Shown here: in pieces, positions 14,435-62,680 of the stretch
Numbering within the stretch: the first letter of the stretch is position 1
Layout: the number at the start of each line of letters is the position of its first letter
Source of the DNA: Pomphorhynchus laevis
Lineage: Eukaryota; Acanthocephala; Palaeacanthocephala; Echinorhynchida; Pomphorhynchidae
NCBI GenBank assembly: GCA_012934845.2
Contig: WNNJ02003863.1
Span: 62,001 to 126,000 of the forward strand
DNA length: 64,000 nucleotides
Reading direction: 5' to 3'
Translations under genes and position numbers: made by a program
The notes under the pieces: model-generated
What the model was told of the DNA's origin: nothing
The model's database searches: none
Seen by the model: the letters and a program-made list of their open reading frames with translations, nothing else

Positions 14435-14454
14435 AGTCATTGTTAGTTTACCCA

Positions 14455-14530
14455 GCTGTCTACCAGTCCTCTCTGCATCCAGCAGTGGATGTATCTGGGA
14501 CTGATGATTCTAAACAATGACGAAACGGTA
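14455..14530 (+). ncRNA. Decayed hammerhead ribozyme, relative of the 53 kb one
   Basis: The order is GCTGT (stem III), C at 14460 (expected cleavage site), TACCAG paired with CTGGGA (stem I, one mismatch), an intact CTGATGA box (14501-14507), a decayed stem II ending TGAC, then GAAACGGT (14522-14529), whose ACGGT pairs with GCTGT through two G-T wobbles. The stem I loop shares CTGCATCCAGCAGTGG with the 53 kb ribozyme, so the two are homologous. Stem II no longer pairs, so activity is unlikely. Confidence 0.6.
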
Positions 14531-14637
14531 CAGAATTATGCTGCGTTGTTTTCTGTATTTTTTAGCTTACCATTCTTGACGTCATAAATTCCAGTAATGA
14601 TGTCGTGAGGTGGTCATTTAGTGTGACCGTATGCTCT

Positions 14638-24642: not shown

Positions 24643-26060
24643 AATGTTTATAAAGATATGTATACAGAACTTACTAAATTAAAGGATAACTATATAATAA
24701 CAACTATTGATAAAGCTAGTAATAACTTTGTCTTCATATGAAAAAAGCTTTAATATTACATACTGATGAAATAAGTTAATTATAATGATTTAAATGTAAA
24801 TCCAACATATGAACGTAGTGAGTTGAGTTTTGAAACAATTATTACATGTCACTGTTCTGTAATGGATAAAAAGGGTATAAAGGTTGAATTAGATAATAAA
24901 ACTATACCTATATTATATTGGAATCCAAAATTACATAAAAATCCAATAAAACCTAGGTTCATATGTAGTGCGTTTAAATGTACATTAAAACCACTTTCTG
25001 TCTATATGAATAAAATACTTAAAGTAATTAAAGCACATTTTAAAAAATATTGCAAGGTAATCGAAATTAATACTGGTATTAAACACTATTTCAGTATTAA
25101 TTCTACAAAAGAATTTTTAGAACAGACAAAAGGAATAAATTTTCAAAATATAAATACATACGATTTTAGTACGCTTTATACAAATCTAGATTTAGCAGAT
25201 ATTAAAGATGCATTAGAAAAATTAATTAATCTTATATTCGGAAAAAGATATACATATATATGTTATAATAACTATAACGCCTATCTAACAAAAATTAAAC
25301 CATCAAATAAATATAAATATATGGATAAAATTGAATTAATAGAATCCTTAAATATTTTGATAAATCAAAATTATTTAAAAGTAGGGACATCTATATTTAG
25401 ACAAGTAAAAGGTTTTCCAATAGGGGGTAATAGTAGCCCAATTATAGATTACTTATTTTTAAGCTTTATAGAATATGAATTTGTTCATGGCTGTGTAGAA
25501 AATAAGTCTAAATTATACAAAGAAATGAAATATCTATTTCGATATATGTGTATTTAACTCTAATCATTTTTATGCAATAAGTGAACAAATTTATCCAGGT
25601 AGCCTTATTCTTAAACTAATATTGATAATAAAAAATTTACATATCTAGATATGAACATTAAATTAACATCAATTTAAACTATTATTAACTTATATTATAA
25701 ATATGTCATATTTAAATTTACAAGAGACATTATAATTTACAAGAAACATATTTTTGCATGAGCATTCCATACATATCATATAATATTAAATATAGAACAT
25801 TAAATAATAAAATTTTATGGATTACCATAATATGTAATGATATTGGCTTTCCTCAAAATCATTTAAATAATCTAATAGATACATATTTTAAACTAGGTTA
25901 CTATAAAAATAAAATCAAACATAAAATAGTTAAATATACAAATCAACACAATATTATTAAAAATAAATTTAAACTCTAAAGCGGAAAATTTTTATGTATA
26001 ATAAATAAAATATTTTGTATTAGAATAAGTTACTTTATAATCAAAATTTATCAGAAGAAA
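24643..26060 (+). pseudogene. Penelope-like element (PLE), RT
   Basis: The plus strand starts with LKDNYIITTIDKASNNFVF near 24670 and, from about 24800, reads an RT of the Penelope type: ILYWNPKLHKNPIKPRFICS, then YDFSTLYTNLDLADIKDAL (motif A with Asp) near 25155-25215, and KGFPIGGNSSPI (motif B) near 25410-25445. The FRY-x-x-x-x motif at 25535-25557 lacks the catalytic YIDD residues present in the 62 kb copy because of a small deletion and frameshift. The tail of the RT resumes at 25758-25979 in another frame. PLEs are telomerase-related retroelements; this copy is dead. It lies antisense in the last intron of the host gene. Confidence 0.85.
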
Positions 26061-33879: not shown

Positions 33880-34470
33880 ATATAGTCGTGTCAGATGTTC
33901 GTTGTTTAATTGTTAATCTGACATCATTTGACCTATCCAATTTAATTATTGCTTTTTCTCTAGCTCGTGACGGGTATGTTAGCCTCGATCATCGATATTT
34001 TCATTATGTGATTGGTATTCTTTATACAATGTCTGGCAGCTCAGTCGTTTTCTGCGCTTTTATGTACAATATCGCATCTACGCGTTAGAGCGCGGACGTT
34101 CATTTGTCCGCATGTCTGTCCAATGTACATTTTTGAGCATTCTACGCATTTGCACATGTAAATTACACCTTTACTTTTGCAATCATTAATCCTCTTTACC
34201 CTATATTTTGGCTCAGTTATCGAGCTATCAAACATTTATGTGCTTTCTATTTCAGCACAGCATTTGTATCTTCTATCACCACATGATTTGTTGATGCCGC
34301 TGTTATCTTTCTGTGATTTACTGGCTAGAAGATGTTTTATTGTACGGCGATTGTAAAAAGCGATATCCGGCATCTTAATTAAGGATCGGCAATCAGTGTC
34401 TATACCTTTAACCGCTTGCATAATATCATGATCCAACCTCGATCCGGTTCTATAGCGCACCACTTTCTAA
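33880..34470 (-). pseudogene. Penelope-like element, GIY-YIG endonuclease end
   Basis: Two adjacent minus-strand frames read a Cys-rich segment (NKSCGDRRYKCC near 34270-34310) and then KGVIYMCKCVECSKMYIGQT (34110-34180), followed by MNVRALTRR. The G-V-I-Y-x(10)-Y-I-G-Q-T pattern is the GIY-YIG nuclease of PLEs, with the preceding Cys cluster characteristic of the group. It would nick target DNA. A stop at about 34236 separates the two parts and the RT is absent. Its sequence differs from the nuclease at 62.98 kb, so a second PLE family is present. Confidence 0.82.
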
Positions 34471-36797: not shown

Positions 36798-37219
36798 ACG
36801 CGGGCATTTAGAATCATCGATTCTAATGCGGGCGTAGCTTGCGCCACGCGTCGCGTCCCCGGGTTGCGGATAGGGGAGTGTCCTGTAGATATACAGGGTA
36901 GCTGCGATTTAAGCAAGCTTTGGCTTGACGAATAAGCAGTCGCGGACAGCTAGCAGTAGCGTTATCGCGATGGCGACGTATAGTGTGGCAGCCTTACGTC
37001 TATAAAATCCATCCATCCATTGGGGGCTTAACGCTATGATATGGCGAGTCGATCCCGCCATTAAATAAGGATCTGCCACTTGTTACCGGACAAGTTACAC
37101 TATTGGATTAGTACCGGTTAGGCCCACCGCTTATAACTGTGGTTGACGATAGGCTCTGCGACAAGCCAGTCACAAAAACAAATAAGTCGTTATCAAAGAA
37201 AAATGGAACAAACCTAAAA

Positions 37220-39763
37220 ATGCAAACACGAAACATAGATAAGGCGTCCACTAAATTCGACGCGGTAAGACGAGGCCCGGTTTTACTGATAAATACGCGA
37301 GGGTTCCCGACGCATGGACGACGCCGGGATTTAAGTAATCCAGTCCAGTGTTATAAAAACACAAATAAAGCTCACGAAAAGATGCGCGTAGCATCTCTAA
37401 ACATCGGCACACTTACTAGTAGGACCGAAGAACTAGCGATGATGCTGCGAAGAAGGAAAATCGACGTATGTACATTACAAGAGACGAAATGGAGTGGTGC
37501 AAAAGCCTATGACTTGGAGCGCGAACGCGGCAATAACGGTTACAAACTTTTTTACAACGGTAACACTCGAACACGAAATGAGGTTGGTATAGCAATCTCC
37601 GAGCAATTCCGTGATGCTGTAAAGGAGGTGAATCGTTACGACGACCGGCTAATGAAGATATCCATCGTTACCATGGAGCGAACAATTCACATTTTCTCTG
37701 CTTATGCACCACAGACAGGACAAAGCGAATCAGCGAAAGATACATTTTGGGAGATGCTGGACAGCAACACTCGCAAAATTCCCGCTGAAGATTATCTAAT
37801 AATCGCAGGAGATCTCAACGGTCATGTTGGCCAACGGGCCGAAGGAAATCAGTGCCATGGTGGAAATGGATACGGTCAAAGAAACAAAGATGGCGAGCGC
37901 ATTGTCGACTTCTCAGACTCCCACGACCTCATCATCACCAATACATGGTTCATAAAGCGGCCCACACAGCTTCCAACATACTACAGTGGAGTAAACAAAT
38001 CGCAGATTGACTTCATTCTTGTACGGCGCAAACAAATGTCCACTGTACATGACGTAAAGGTCATACCTTATGAGACAACAGCAGCACAGCATAGTCCCGT
38101 AATCGCAGTTTTGAATATTAAACCACCCAAACAACATCAGGAAAAGCGTACCGGCCCATCACGCATCAAGTGGTGGCGATTCCACGAGAAGGAGTCTGAA
38201 ATGATACATCGCATACAATTGCCTGACGTAACAGACGTCGAGAACACAAGGAACAGAGTCAAAGATATTATCCACATCGCCGCCAAAAAGACAATTGGAT
38301 CCACCAAGCCCGGAAGACGCTACATCAATTTTGATACTTGGCTTTGGACAGATGAGGTGAAAATGAGGGTGCGTGAAAAGAAGCGACAATATCACGTATT
38401 CCTCGATGATAAGACCCATGTAAATTGGCAGAAGTATCACGAAGCCAAGCGTAAAGCGAAGAAAGCCGTGGCGTCCGCACGAGCCATCCATTATGAGGAA
38501 GTGTACAAGAAGCTGGATACTCGAGACGGCGAACGCGACCTTTTCCGACTTCTCAAGCTCCGCCACAAACAAACTCAGGACATCGAAAAGTTCCACTGCG
38601 TTAATGATAAAAACGGCGAACAAATCGTAGGTCGACCAGAAGTTTTAGAAAGATGGCGTGAGTATTTTGAGGAAGTACGTACTGAAGAGTTCACTCACCC
38701 CCCAATCTCACTAGCCCAAACAGTACTCGGTCCATTACTCCCAATTAGCACGGAGGAAGTTGATGAAGCGTTAAAGAGGACAAAGAAGGGAAAAACAGCA
38801 GGCCCAGATGGCATCTCAGCCGAGCTATGGAAATCCAAGTGCTGGAACCCAGCACCTTGGTTAGCGAAAATCTTTAACAAAATCATCGAAGAACACACAA
38901 CACCGACTGATTGGCAATATAGCACCACGGTACCAATTTGGAAAAAGAAAGGAAATCCAGCTGAATGTTCAAACTACCGCCCTATCAGATTGCTATCTCA
39001 TACTATGAAGGTATTCGAGCGAATTCTTGACCAGCGTATACGCAAAATCGCAAATTGTACAATCAATCAGGCTGATTTCGTCAAGGGATGTGGCACCACC
39101 GACGCCATACATGCCGCGCGGCTGCTGATCGAAAAATATCGGGAAAAAGACACACCTCTTCACATAGCATTCCTCGACTTAGAGAAAGCTTTCGATCGCG
39201 TTCCACATGAGCTTATCTGGCATGCGCTACGCCAACATCAAATCCCAGAGCATCTGGTTGAGTGGGTCAAGCTGCTCTACATCGGCCCAAGAAGCAGAGT
39301 ACGATGCACAGCTGGAGTATCAAAACCATTTCGTATTTCCGTCGGCGTCCACCAAGGAAGCGTGCTTTCGCCACTTCTGTTTATTCTGGTCATGGATACC
39401 TTAACGAGCGACATTCAGCGTCAAGCACCTTATACCCTACTATATGCGGACGACGTCTTTCTAGCTTCCGTCAATAAGACCGACCTCACGCAGTTAGTCA
39501 AGCTTTGGAATGACAGATTAGCACAACATGGCCTGCGGCTAAACACTAGGAAGACTGAGTACTTGACGACCAATACAAACGATACGGGCACGATCAATAT
39601 CAACGGAACAGACCTTCCACGGACCGAAAATTTCAAATATCTAGGATCGGTGCTCTCAGCTGATGGCGAATTGAACAACGAAATAACTGCCAGAATCAAT
39701 GCTACATGGATGAAGTGGCGTGCTACAACTGGCATAATGTGCGATCCGCAAAATGAAGGATAA
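37220..39763 (+). CDS. RTE ORF2: AP-endonuclease and reverse transcriptase
   Basis: The first in-frame ATG is 37220; the open frame itself extends upstream to at least 37139, where it would need a GTG. The endonuclease spans about 37380-38120: ASLNIGTL, TLQETKW, SAYAPQTGQ, IAGDLNGHVG, SQIDFILV and QHSPV carry the catalytic Asn, Glu, Tyr, Asp-x-Asn, Asp and His. The RT follows: KTAGPDGIS, NYRPIRLLSHTMKVFERIL, AFLDLEKAFDRVPHELIW (motif A), VHQGSVLSPLLF, and LLYADDVFLAS (YADD) at about 39435-39470, all intact. It nicks DNA and copies the element RNA by target-primed reverse transcription. The frame ends after a one-base insertion near 39745, so the last ~130 residues are in the next frame. Confidence 0.93.
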   Translation: MQTRNIDKASTKFDAVRRGPVLLINTRGFPTHGRRRDLSNPVQCYKNTNKAHEKMRVASLNIGTLTSRTEELAMMLRRRKIDVCTLQETKWSGAKAYDLERERGNNGYKLFYNGNTRTRNEVGIAISEQFRDAVKEVNRYDDRLMKISIVTMERTIHIFSAYAPQTGQSESAKDTFWEMLDSNTRKIPAEDYLIIAGDLNGHVGQRAEGNQCHGGNGYGQRNKDGERIVDFSDSHDLIITNTWFIKRPTQLPTYYSGVNKSQIDFILVRRKQMSTVHDVKVIPYETTAAQHSPVIAVLNIKPPKQHQEKRTGPSRIKWWRFHEKESEMIHRIQLPDVTDVENTRNRVKDIIHIAAKKTIGSTKPGRRYINFDTWLWTDEVKMRVREKKRQYHVFLDDKTHVNWQKYHEAKRKAKKAVASARAIHYEEVYKKLDTRDGERDLFRLLKLRHKQTQDIEKFHCVNDKNGEQIVGRPEVLERWREYFEEVRTEEFTHPPISLAQTVLGPLLPISTEEVDEALKRTKKGKTAGPDGISAELWKSKCWNPAPWLAKIFNKIIEEHTTPTDWQYSTTVPIWKKKGNPAECSNYRPIRLLSHTMKVFERILDQRIRKIANCTINQADFVKGCGTTDAIHAARLLIEKYREKDTPLHIAFLDLEKAFDRVPHELIWHALRQHQIPEHLVEWVKLLYIGPRSRVRCTAGVSKPFRISVGVHQGSVLSPLLFILVMDTLTSDIQRQAPYTLLYADDVFLASVNKTDLTQLVKLWNDRLAQHGLRLNTRKTEYLTTNTNDTGTININGTDLPRTENFKYLGSVLSADGELNNEITARINATWMKWRATTGIMCDPQNEG

Positions 39764-47190: not shown

Positions 47191-47356
47191 CTCGCCTTAG
47201 CAAGATCTAGTGCTAGACTACATTGCTCATGTCGTAAAAATAAGTCCACAGGGTTATTTCATCAGTGGACTTAAAACAAAATGTTATCATAAAAACAATA
47301 TGTTATTGTGATTATTATACAAACAGCTCGATTAATAAACTAGCAGCAGTACTTAC

Positions 47357-47495
47357 GTGAAAGAGAACAACGTTGAACACTTTTGGGTCTTTTAGACTGT
47401 TTCTGTTCACACAGACTGTCGCTAACTTTTTTGCCTTCCTCGTTAACGCAATACACAATTCGATATTTTTTGCCAACATTGCATCTCGGTTGACA
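47357..47495 (-). CDS. ADAMTS9/GON-1-like gene, exon 4 (last TSP1 repeat)
   Basis: This 139-nt exon follows a TATAG acceptor, starts in phase 0 and ends after one base of a codon at a strong GTAAGT donor. It encodes CQPRCNVGKKYRIVYC, then CVNEEGKKVSD, and QRCSLS. This is a classical thrombospondin type-1 repeat body (C-x3-C-x-VG-x3-R-x-V-x-C). Its leading Trp residues come from exon 3. It is the last repeat before the GON domain, as in ADAMTS9 and ADAMTS20. Confidence 0.88.
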
Positions 47496-51335: not shown

Positions 51336-52711
51336 TATTAAATCAGCTAACTGAGTCTACGTATTTAATATAATTATAAAATAAACAAAACATATTAATG
51401 CTAAATCAAAATTTAATAATTAAATAATAAAATTAATAATTGCTTTTAGATTTTCTATAATTTAAATTTTCTATAATTTAAATCAAGTTAAAAAAAATGA
51501 AATTTAAAATAAACGTCATTTTTATGAATTGAGTAATAAATAACAGACGTTGTATCAGAATAATAATTAGAGGTCATCAGGAGGAACTGCTATGCTATCA
51601 GGTTTCGGCCCCTAACTCCTCTACCCAACATAGCAGCGGGGCCAAATACATGCTAATGATGTATTTCCTCTGAAATAACTATCTAGTATCTTATTCTAAT
51701 ACAAAGTATATTATTTATTATCCATCCATAAAAATTTGCCACTTAAGAGTTTAAATTTATTCTTTATATTATTGTGTTGATTTATATATTTTACTATTTT
51801 CTGCTTGATGTTATTTTTATAGTAACCTAGTTTAAAATATGTATCTATTAAATTATTTAAATTATTTTGAAAAAAGCCAATATCATTACATATTGTTGCA
51901 ATTCTTAAAATTTAATTATTTAATGTATTATATTTTATATTATATGGTATGCATGAATGCTCATGCAAAAATATGTTTCTTGTAAATTTAAATATGTCAT
52001 CTTTACGATATAAATTAATAGTAGTTTTAGTTAATGTTAATTTAATGTTCATATCTAGATATACACCTTCTTTATCATTAATATTGGTTTTGTTAAGAAT
52101 AAGGCTTTCTGGATAAATGTGCTCACTAATTGAATAAAAATCATTAGAATTAAATACATATATCATCAATGTATCGAAACATATATTTCATATATTTATA
52201 TTGTTTAGATTTAGTTTTTACACAGTTATGAACAAATTCATATCCTATAAAGCTTAAAAACAAGTCAGCTATAATTGGTCTACTATTACCTCCCATTGGA
52301 ATACCTTTTATTTGTCCAAATATAGATTTCCCTACCTTTAAACAATTTTGATTTATCAAAATATTTAAGGATTCTATTAATTCAATTTTATTCATATATT
52401 TATATTTATTTGATGGTTTAATTTTTGTTAGATAGGCGTTATAATTATTATAACATATATATGTATATCTTTTTCCGAATATAAGATTAATTAATTTTAC
52501 TAACGCTTCTTTAATATCTACTAAATCTAGATTTGTATAAAGAGTACTAAAATCGTATGTATTTATATTTTGAAAATTTATTCCTTTTGTCTGTTCTAAA
52601 AATTCTTTTGTAGAATAAATACTGAAATAGTGTTTTATACCAGTATTAATTTCGATTACCTTGCAATAATTTTTAGTGTGCTTTAATTACTTTAAGTATT
52701 GTATTCATATA
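51336..52711 (-). pseudogene. PLE, truncated RT with 3' tail; near-twin of the 61 kb copy
   Basis: The minus strand reads YDFSTLYTNLDLVDIKEAL, KGIPMGGNSRPIIADLFLSF and YMFRYIDDI, then after a 2-bp deletion near 52155 FYSISEHIYPESLILNKTNI and the rest of the RT. The tail module follows at 51336-51700. Sequence is nearly identical to 61216-62613 over ~1.38 kb. It ends at 52711, where the two copies diverge. The product was a Penelope-type RT; the frame is now broken. Confidence 0.85.
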
Positions 52712-52789: not shown

Positions 52790-53130
52790 TTCACCTGGAA
52801 TGGTCTCACTCTTATTCATGATAAAAGTTAGCCGATATTAAAGAGACCTGCGCTGGCATTTGCCAGTGCTGTTGCTAATGATCCTTTTTATTGAAGCAGT
52901 AGTGCTGGTTTAGCACTCTGTGAGGTTACTAGAAAATTTTCTAGTACATCATTCACATTGATTCATTCATTGATTGCCGTCTGCCAGTCCTCCTCTGCAT
53001 CCAGTAGTGGGAGGAATCTGGCACTGATGAGTCATTGTGATGACGAAACGGCATTTGTCATTCTTTCGCGTCTGGCTTACGTGTTTTACAAGAAATTCAC
53101 GCGGAATAGTCTCACTCTCCTTTATTAATG
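52790..53130 (+). mobile_element. Retrozyme-like unit: hammerhead bracketed by direct repeats, ~306-bp period
   Basis: TTCACCTGGAATGGTCTCAC (52790) and TTCACGCGGAATAGTCTCAC (53096) are imperfect direct repeats extending ~31-35 bp and lying 306 bp apart. Between them are three hairpins (CTGGCA-TT-TGCCAG at ~52852, AGTGCTGGTTTAGCACT at ~52902, and a perfect 18-bp palindrome at 52928-52945) and then the hammerhead. No coding frame exists. This is the layout expected of small non-coding hammerhead retroelements, or of one unit of a hammerhead satellite plus the start of a second. Confidence 0.6.
52976..53052 (+). ncRNA. Complete hammerhead ribozyme (stem III open)
   Basis: GCCGT (52976-52980) pairs with ACGGC (53048-53052) as stem III. 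The base after it, C 52981, is the expected cleavage site of a GTC triplet. TGCCAG (52982-52987) pairs with CTGGCA (53018-53023), and TCCTCC (52988-52993) with GGAGGA (53010-53015), as stem I. CTGATGA occupies 53024-53030; stem II GTCA/TGAC (53031-53034, 53041-53044) closes a TTGTGA loop; GAAA is at 53045-53048. Every invariant core base is present and all three stems pair without mismatch, apart from two bases bulged in stem I. Self-cleavage is therefore likely from established hammerhead rules, but untested. Confidence 0.88.
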
Positions 53131-54440: not shown

Positions 54441-54596
54441 ATATTCAATATTTACGTCCGTAAATCAGAGTTATATCATTGCTTTTACAATATATTCAGT
54501 ATATTATTGTGATAATAATGCGATCTTTTATCAAAACAAATGGGACAGATGTGTATCAGAACATAATTCGATCTTTTAGAAAGACAATGTACTTAC

Positions 54597-54764
54597 AACA
54601 TGTTTTGACTTAGTCAACCGATTGAAGCAATCCCCATTACAGGGTGTTACAAGTACTGGCTTTTTGTTGATATCACATAACTGTGACGGAAATGTATAAT
54701 TGTTCAATAACGATCCACATCTCATATGTCTGTACATATTTCCTTGTCCACAAATAGACGTGCA
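54597..54764 (-). CDS. ADAMTS9/GON-1-like gene, exon 2 (TSP1 repeat)
   Basis: This 168-nt exon (56 codons, phase 0/0) lies between a TTTTAG acceptor and a GTT|GTAAGT donor. It encodes CTSICGQGNMYRHMRC and then PCNGDC, the Cys-x3-Cys-Gly-x-Gly and terminal Cys pattern of a thrombospondin type-1 repeat. Spliced to the W-x4-W of the preceding exon it gives a full repeat. Such repeats bind matrix glycosaminoglycans and are usually O-fucosylated at the C-S/T-x2-C motif. Here that motif reads C-T-S-I-C, with one residue more than the usual spacing. Confidence 0.85.
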
Positions 54765-59200: not shown

Positions 59201-59419
59201 AAACAGAACGAAATACGAAGAATATCTGACACATCTTCTTTTTCTTTTTTTCTTTTTAATAGCACTTATATTTCCATGTACTAATTTTGTTTACGAAAAT
59301 CTTTATTATTATTGTTTAAAAATTACTTGACAAACTGCATTTCAAGTCAAGTGGATATAAAGTCAATAGAAAAGGATACCAACTAAATTATTTAAAAAGA
59401 AAGCAAGAAATGCACCTAC

Positions 59420-59635
59420 ATTTGACCACTGGCTTGCTATCCATCGAAAATTGTTGAATTCAGATAACTTCTCAATAAGTTTGGACGTCCGTTGTCTTTT
59501 ACAATAGGCACTGCATGATATTTGAGAGTAGTCAGTTTTCGTTAATGATACACATTCCTGATTAAAGGTATATGTATTAGATGGTTTTGAGCACACATAA
59601 TTTATAAGAGTTCTCTGGTTGCAAATTGTTTCGCA
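59420..59635 (-). CDS. ADAMTS9/GON-1-like gene, exon 1 in window (TSP1 repeat end and next TSP1 start)
   Basis: This 216-nt exon (72 codons, phase 0 on both sides) follows a TTTTAG acceptor and ends at an AAT|GTAGG donor. It opens with CETIC, continues with Cys residues spaced as in a thrombospondin type-1 repeat (for example SCSAYC), and ends with RWIASQWSN. That is the W-x4-W-S-x motif that begins the next repeat, whose first Cys is the first codon of the following exon. The same exon layout recurs in the next two exons, which supports the model. The exon supplying the first Trp residues of this repeat was not found between 59636 and 64000 and is probably beyond the window. Confidence 0.82.
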
Positions 59636-61608: not shown

Positions 61609-62680
61609 TTATTTATTATCCATCCATAAAAATTTGCCACTTAAGAGTTTAAATTTATTCTTTATATTATTGTGTTGATTTATATATTTTACTATTTTCT
61701 GCTTGATGTTATTTTTATAGTAACCTAGTTTAAAATATGTATCTATTAAATTATGTAAATTATTTTGAAAAAAGCCAATATCATTACATATTGTTGCAAT
61801 TCTTAAAATTTCATTATTTAATGTATTATATTTTATATTATATGGTATGCATGAATGCTCATGCAAAAATATGTTTCTTGTAAATTTAAATATGTCATCT
61901 TTACGATATAAATTAATAGTAGTTTTAGTTAATGTTAATTTAATGTTCATATCTAGATATACACCTTCTTTATCATTAATATTGGTTTTGTTAAGAATAA
62001 GGCTTTCTGGATAAATGTGCTCACTAATTGAATAAAAATCATTAGAATTAAATACACATATATCATCAATGTATCGAAACATATATTTCATATATTTATA
62101 TTGTTTAGATTTAGTTTTTACACAGTTATGAACAAATTCATATCCTATAAAGCTTAAAAACAAGTCAGCTATAATTGGGCTACTATTACCACCCATTGGA
62201 ACACCTTTTACTTGTCTAAATATAGATGTCCCTACTTTTAAATAATTTTGATTTATCAAAATATTTAAGGATTCTATTAATTCAATTTTATCCATATATT
62301 TATATTTATTTGATGGTTTAATTTTTGTTAGATAGGCGTTATAATTATTATAACATATATATGTATATCTTTTTCCGAATATAAGATCAATTAATTTTAC
62401 TAACGCTTCTTTAATATCTACTAAATCTAGATTTGTATAAAGCGTACTAAAATCGTATGTATTTATATTTTGAAAATTTATTCCTTTTGTCTGTTCTAAA
62501 AATTCTTTTGTAGAATTAATACTGAAATAGTGTTTTATACCAGTATTAATTTCGATTACCTTGCAATATTTTTAAAGTGTGCTTTAATTACTTTAAGTAT
62601 TTTATTCATATAGACAGAAAGTGGTTTTAATGTACATTTAAACACACTACATATGAACCTAGGTTTGATTTCTTACTTAA
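61609..62680 (-). pseudogene. PLE RT, most intact copy (catalytic YIDD kept)
   Basis: An open minus-strand frame runs from about 62566 to 61609 (about 319 codons), with no break; the first ATG in it is 62295. It contains YDFSTLYTNLDLVDIKEAL (motif A), KGVPMGGNSSPIIADLFLSF (motif B), FRYIDDICVF (YIDD) and the thumb region through KFLWMDNK and stop. A one-base deletion in an A run near 62572 puts the N-terminal part (KPRFICS, KCTLKPLSVYMNKILKVIKA) in another frame. No GIY-YIG domain follows on this strand. The RT core could still be functional as a fold, but the element is not. Confidence 0.85.

Follow-up and report, generated by a model that had tools for sequence, protein, structure and literature searches.

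A predicted type III hammerhead ribozyme in a high-copy, retrozyme-like repeat of Pomphorhynchus laevis, probably mobilised by Penelope-like elements

The hammerhead motif and its setting

The window, by which we mean the whole stretch of 64,000 nucleotides analysed, contains on its plus strand a predicted type III hammerhead ribozyme. It is part of a repeat copy that lies between two stretches of an ADAMTS-like gene encoded on the minus strand. The hammerhead was assigned from the sequence, its RNAfold structure and a descriptor with shuffle control. The features are the following.

14449-14533, plus strand: partly decayed hammerhead of subfamily B (alignment A2; 68.6 bits with our covariance model R1, which was trained on it)
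47343-47495, minus strand: TSP1_ADAMTS stretch of the host gene (PF19030, E 1.3e-06, 29.0 bits)
52790-53128, plus strand: repeat copy of 1.12 units (consensus 115 through 304/1 to 147) with one complete hammerhead
52975-53053, plus strand: predicted type III hammerhead ribozyme
52975-52980 with 53048-53053, plus strand: hammerhead stem III, 6 bp
52981/52982, plus strand: predicted cleavage site, after C52981 by the hammerhead rule; T52982 is consensus position 1
52982-52987 with 53018-53023, plus strand: hammerhead stem I, 6 bp, then an internal loop and an outer hairpin
53024-53030, plus strand: hammerhead core CTGATGA
53031-53044, plus strand: hammerhead stem II, 5 bp
53045-53048, plus strand: hammerhead core GAAA
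53081-53097, plus strand: equivalent of the first 3'-end cluster (consensus 100-116; 27 of 85 3' ends), mapped by consensus numbering
53123-53128, plus strand: equivalent of the second 3'-end cluster (consensus 142-153; 35 of 85 3' ends); the window copy ends here, at consensus 147
54579-54764, minus strand: TSP1_ADAMTS stretch of the host gene (PF19030, E 3.6e-06, 27.6 bits; cut-off 23.8)

The site contains the core CUGANGA ... GAAA, an NUH cleavage triplet and three stems. Stem III is open and stems I and II are closed by loops, which defines type III, in the fold of the site and in that of a near-identical copy (L003). For positions 52976-53052, RNAfold returned the hammerhead three-way junction at -33.3 kcal/mol (z -4.05), and none of 200 shuffled sequences was as good. 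The hammerhead rule places cleavage after the triplet, here after C52981, as the first-pass annotation had predicted; what it reported on the topology (type III), the integrity of the core and the GTC triplet was likewise borne out by sequence, fold and descriptor. Its three stems are indeed paired, but their lengths had to be revised, since stem III has 6 bp instead of 5, stem II has 5 bp instead of 4, and the 6 bp of stem I are followed by the internal loop and the outer hairpin.

A type III descriptor (CTGANGA ... GAAA, with at least 5 bp in stems III and I and at least 4 bp in stem II), composed after the motif had been seen, matched the window once, as compared to none of 1,891 dinucleotide-shuffled windows searched on both strands. 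The hammerhead at 52975-53053 is more than a chance occurrence. A covariance-model match had been named beforehand as a test, and this expectation was not borne out: no Rfam family matched across the whole window at its gathering score, and a relaxed scan with the type III model RF00008 gave 20.5 bits (gathering score 48.5, E 0.045), in an alignment that puts the 5' strands of stems III and I in the wrong place. Considering that a strict sequence pattern counts at least 846 copies in the genome and its reversed version none, we read this shortfall as that of a model made for a short stem I. The core and the order of stem III are as in RF00008 (Hammerhead_3), whereas the native stem I exceeds that of the model. 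R1 gave 114.7 bits for the window site and 68.6 bits for the relative at 14.5 kb, both of which are in its training alignment. Neither the descriptor nor R1 detected a minus-strand hammerhead in the window.

The ribozyme had been described as lying in an intron of an ADAMTS9-like gene. It does lie between the two TSP1_ADAMTS stretches, but while these are encoded by the minus strand, the ribozyme is encoded by the plus strand; it is therefore antisense to the gene, whose pre-mRNA does not carry it. A further candidate stretch at 59366-59635 had no Pfam match.

Across 28 distinct copies, 89.9% of 606 cells pair, and partner sliding reduces pairing to at most 59.7%. Two-sided changes were observed in 11 cells belonging to 4 pairs; this cell count and the covariation score were reached by 0 of 500 shuffles, whereas the number of pairs with a two-sided change was not unusual (reached by 109 of 500) and the pair types were reached by 198 of 500. 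The clearest covariation occurs in stem I, in rows of subfamily B, where G-C is replaced by A-U in 4 copies and A-U by G-C in 5 copies. As the copies are related to each other, this covariation is modest evidence. The decayed relative noted at 14.5 kb is real and is a member of this second subfamily, whose loop pattern was counted in 21 copies in the same assembly; in alignment A2 its stems I and II are partly decayed. The same alignment shows the stem I hairpin CUGC-AUCCA-GYAG in most rows of both subfamilies. The conserved stem I structure proposed at first sight is thus present, but the loop-loop contact under selection that had been suggested for it is not supported by a simple search for pairing between loops I and II, which gave nothing beyond short pairings in subfamily A and no pairing in B.

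Copies, arrays and insertion ends of the repeat

The ribozyme is part of a multicopy mobile repeat, which the first-pass annotation had missed, and not a lone intronic ribozyme. In the assembly from which the window derives (249,390,268 bases, 3,242 contigs), a strict pattern spanning stem II and the 3' strand of stem III has 441 forward and 405 reverse matches, corresponding to at least 846 copies, and the reversed-pattern control has 0. A DNA search for the repeat, in which the best 40 of 2,068 candidates were scored, listed 43 matches. The repeat unit is about 304 bp long with 42% GC, and it contains no reverse transcriptase or GIY-YIG endonuclease frame. The spacing between cleavage sites is 299-311 nt in 24 of 27 intervals, with exactly 304 nt as the commonest value (6 of 27), and the remaining intervals are of 108, 292, and 326 nt. 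Folded as a circle, the consensus is predicted to be 67% paired (z -5.7, 100 shuffles); in the linear consensus fold, stem I is formed, but some of the core and stem II is engaged in pairing with other regions of the unit.

The repeats are often arranged head to tail. Arrays of at least one unit were observed in 37 of 48 loci, and the longest spans 10.96 units (L034). For an array to exceed one unit, the template must have been circular or multimeric. The identity between neighbouring units is 0.997-1.0 in L042, which fits a circle template, and 0.94-0.99 in L034 and L048; the mixed unit identity within arrays indicates that they have sources besides rolling around one circle. For the window copy, blastn of the tiled consensus aligned to L036:791-1129 at 93.5% identity. 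With its single hammerhead, this copy could cut a plus-strand transcript once but would not free a whole unit by two cuts. At L053:1250-1310, two opposite cores (1259 and 1274) are found in a short near-palindrome in which little other unit sequence remains.

Insertion ends were counted in 48 loci (L002-L006, L008-L034, L036 and L042-L056), after the exclusion of overlaps or duplicates (L001, L007 and L035) and of five subfamily B loci (L037-L041). Since these loci were chosen for a well-matched hammerhead, short or old copies are under-represented, which alone should not produce a pile-up at one position. Pieces below 85% identity were dropped before counting; one of them (L006:291-661, 72%) also starts at position 1. 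The 3' ends fall largely into two internal bands separated by approximately 37 nt, which together account for 62 of 85 ends (27 at consensus 100-116 and 35 at 142-153), and six further 3' ends are located at consensus 133. A divergent minus/plus junction with the element 3' ends outermost was present in 25 of the 48 loci; the only plus/minus neighbour pair (L015) involves a 26-nt piece at a contig end.

The 5' ends, by comparison, coincide with the predicted cleavage site. Position 1 was the 5' end in 8 of 84 cases, against 0.3 expected (binomial P 5e-10 for that position), and the eight insertions concerned (L003, L006, L013, L016, L022, L031, L055 and L056) all have different flanks. Positions 1-4 comprise 15 of 84 5' ends, and any other single position has at most 4. 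Such an excess would be expected from run-off at the ends of RNA templates that the ribozyme had already cleaved.

Flank repeats of 10-13 nt were detected in 13 of 34 insertions, as compared to 3 of 332 mismatched flank pairs, and several of these long repeats are AT runs. The clearer ones (for example in L005, L014 and L031) overlap both element ends by a few bases, which suggests microhomology. At the window copy, no flank repeat stands out (5 nt at best), and a fixed poly(A)-like tail was not seen at the insertion ends, where A/T-rich ends are common.

Retroelements of the genome and the copying of the repeat

Fragments resembling the reverse transcriptase of Penelope-like elements (PLEs) are present in the window at 24775-25979 (plus strand), 51912-52686 (minus strand) and 61609-62571 (minus strand), one of them about 100 bp from the ribozyme repeat. 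The family related to the last of these has at least 125 close copies near 98% identity (the best 125 of 24,936 candidates) and open frames of up to 908 aa; the window fragment itself scored 27.2 bits with RVT_1, below the cut-off of 29.6, and Pfam detected no domain in an 819-aa piece of L068. In L077, just upstream of the L068 part, a GIY-YIG-like stretch was recognised by eye on the N-terminal side, and we take these two loci to resemble the permuted Naiad/Chlamys clade. A second PLE group, found with the GIY-YIG-like sequence at 34044-34232, has open frames of 853-940 aa (853, 889 and 892 aa among others) and minimal hammerhead-like motifs at junctions in L080, L081 and L083. The window segment 34044-34235 (minus strand) resembles the C-terminal GIY-YIG endonuclease of this group.

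R1 had no match in the 20 PLE-frame loci L057-L076, and the sequence shared between the repeat and one PLE was limited to 13 nt at a single PLE junction (E 0.83). At L017:1444-2489, the 3' region of a PLE runs straight into a type III array of the same orientation, which may reflect a template jump or a neighbouring insertion. The window also harbours an 883-aa open frame (37112-39763, plus strand) that by eye has the look of a LINE endonuclease and reverse transcriptase. The sequence (TTAGG)5 had 0 exact matches in the assembly, from which the TTAGG repeat is either absent or in which it was not assembled.

We consider it likely that the hammerhead serves as the processing signal of a short retrozyme-like element, non-autonomous and apparently without coding capacity, that is most likely copied by PLEs with priming at two sites and on two strands. 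In such a cycle, transcription of arrays would yield multimeric RNA, which the hammerhead would cleave, leaving the 5' end that is seen as a footprint in genomic insertions, and some units may be closed into circles. A reverse transcriptase, most likely that of a PLE, would open an AT-rich target by a staggered cut, and copying would start at either of two internal RNA sites about 37 nt apart, from both target strands. The two cDNAs would then join at their 5' sides, giving the end structure observed, namely arms that diverge, units arranged head to tail, and flank repeats overlapping with the ends of the element. The window copy would be one such insertion, antisense in an intron of the ADAMTS-like gene. 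The more specific reading, a type III retrozyme that parasitises PLEs in an animal, with self-cleaved and perhaps circular RNA copied by the PLE enzyme from both target strands and with the cut site recorded to the nucleotide, is one towards which we lean slightly.

PLEs have already been proposed as mobilisers of animal retrozymes (PMC7229834). Frangieh et al. 2024 (PMC11167929) describe experiments in which a purified PLE protein cut both strands of AT-rich DNA and extended them, with synthesis beginning at two neighbouring internal positions on the RNA that bound a "tail" of 30-40 bp. PLEs, as presented in that article, share with the repeat the tandem arrangement of copies, targets rich in AT, initiation at two internal sites and the extension of both strands; in the repeat, the two bands of 3' ends (62 of 85) are about 37 nt apart and divergent arms occur in 25 of 48 loci. 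It is this match of two internal start sites and both-strand extension with PLE behaviour in vitro, together with the abundance of long PLE-like frames in this genome, that favours PLEs as the mobilisers. There are also differences from the published PLE (PMC11167929). PLEs encode a reverse transcriptase and an endonuclease and carry minimal type I hammerheads, whereas the repeat encodes neither enzyme. The start sites of the published PLE are non-homologous to the cut DNA, whereas the flank repeats here overlap the element ends; and hammerhead cleavage was unnecessary in vitro, with no reads at the cut site in the data reported there, whereas 5' ends at the cut site are found here. The insertion ends make the proposal of PLE mobilisers testable through three features, namely initiation at two internal sites, priming from both sides, and 5' ends located at the ribozyme cut.

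Several of the same features could have been generated by a LINE-type enzyme through target-primed reverse transcription with twin priming. Twin priming yields inverted arms, flank repeats of 10-13 nt suit LINEs, and an 883-aa LINE-like open frame, recognised by eye, is present in the window. However, the insertions are bounded on both sides by 3' sites of the element itself, which fall at two positions about 37 nt apart as in the PLE assay, and the insertions have no visible poly(A)-like fixed tail, although A/T-rich ends are common; we therefore regard a LINE-type rather than a PLE-type mobiliser as unlikely. Somewhat less probable still is a spread as a satellite at the DNA level, by unequal exchange or rolling-circle DNA, with the hammerhead as a bystander. 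Head-to-tail arrays of up to 10.96 units (L034) and a mixed unit identity that fits later exchange agree with it, and L019, where the same insertion is present twice, indicates that DNA-level duplication occurs; but the copies are scattered over many contigs, their arms diverge, they are bordered by flank repeats, and their 3' ends fall at two sites while their 5' ends vary; moreover, a DNA process offers no reason for 5' ends at a ribozyme cut site. A pure satellite is disfavoured by these insertion ends.

A regulatory ribozyme kept in an intron to control the ADAMTS-like gene, as with the conserved intronic hammerheads of amniotes, could be read from the intact core and from the position between two exon-like stretches, but is very improbable with the exons on the opposite strand and the site being one of at least 846 genomic copies. 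Equally improbable is a chance hammerhead-like sequence without a catalytic past, with which the empty Rfam scan at gathering score would agree, but against which stand the 0 of 1,891 shuffled windows, a structure maintained over 28 copies and insertion 5' ends that mark the cut site. The PLE-copied, retrozyme-like element thus remains our preferred reading.

Relation to known hammerheads and to a type I repeat in the same genome

The rodent CLEC2 ribozyme is a type III hammerhead. The initial statement that most animal hammerheads are of type I agrees with PMC7229834, PMC7761336 and PMC3088659, yet type III hammerheads have already been published for animals (PMC7936874). The comparisons that follow relate to parts of the cited articles. 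Metazoan non-LTR retrozymes carry type I hammerheads (Cervera and de la Pena 2020, PMC7229834), and animal retrozymes are also described with type I hammerheads in PMC7761336 and PMC6155905. With the metazoan non-LTR retrozymes of PMC7229834, the repeat has in common head-to-tail units of a few hundred bp, a low GC content and the presence of PLEs in the same genome. The tandem units of about 150-450 bp with less than 50% GC that characterise these elements have their counterpart in the 24 of 27 intervals of 299-311 nt and the GC content of 0.42, their strongly self-paired unit RNA in the 67% of paired positions (z -5.7), and their flank duplications of more than 4 bp in the repeats of 10-13 nt (13 of 34 versus 3 of 332). 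The type I hammerhead is the exception, with stem III being open here. Furthermore, the divergent two-armed insertions and the 5' ends at the cut site are features of the present repeat that were not seen in the sections of PMC7229834 considered.

Type III hammerheads were reported by de la Pena et al. 2021 (PMC7936874) in HDV-like RNAs of toad and termite and in termite and fly genomes. The extended type III hammerheads of the HDV-like agents resemble the present one in their long helix I, internal loop and extra hairpin and in their occurrence in animals, although the first part of stem I comprises 6 bp here and 5 bp there (PMC7936874). No pairing between a loop I GCCR and a loop II YGGC, as in the HDV-like hammerheads, was seen here, and the hammerheads that HDV-like agents carry on both RNA polarities have no parallel in the window, where the minus strand had no match. 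The termite genomic type III hammerheads are reported as isolated motifs (PMC7936874), whereas the present one belongs to a high-copy repeat. Elements with type III hammerheads in insects are mentioned in PMC7761336, partly as work in preparation.

The plant LTR retrozymes (Cervera et al. 2016, PMC4918200) are likewise non-autonomous, with type III hammerheads and strongly self-paired RNA, and the linear consensus fold, in which part of the core and stem II is paired elsewhere, resembles their "blocked" conformation. They differ in having LTRs of 300-400 bp, circles of 600-1000 nt and 4-bp target duplications (PMC4918200), as compared to a unit of about 304 nt and longer flank repeats here. 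In the literature searched, which includes few subscription journals, a type III repeat family with such an anatomy was not seen in animals. Retrozymes and animal type III hammerheads being already known, what is new on our best reading of the articles consulted is a type III hammerhead in a high-copy, retrozyme-like animal repeat.

Perreault et al. 2011 (PMC3088659) observed that by far most of the hammerheads in repeats of eukaryotes belong to type I, and considered that this architecture may be needed for repeats to propagate. The finding of at least 846 copies of a type III repeat in an animal genome argues against such a requirement, and the same genome offers an internal comparison in the form of a type I hammerhead repeat that is spaced at about 350 bp and has 321 strict copies, with 0 in the reversed-pattern control. 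Among the places listed, opposite-strand neighbours within 1.2 kb were divergent in 6 of 6 pairs of the type I repeat and in 10 of 10 pairs of the type III repeat; both repeats thus seem to share an insertion route. Judged by sequence, the best reading is that of a retrozyme-like element, probably mobilised by PLEs, in which the hammerhead is of type III and not of type I, and which exists beside type I repeats. If the repeat is a type III retrozyme that parasitises PLEs, the type I architecture is not required for repeats to propagate in animals, and the two types of repeat have a genome and a machinery in common.

The type I repeat scored 30.6 bits with RF02275 in L055 (L055:1620-2301) and 28.7 bits in L082 (L082:298-362), the gathering score being 52. 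The L082 copy is located upstream of a PLE-like frame. Plant-type miRNA families of Rfam (MIR4387 and mir-4716) matched below their gathering score at L055:1070-1222, on the inverted arms of a repeat insertion; these matches probably arise from palindromes that resemble hairpins.
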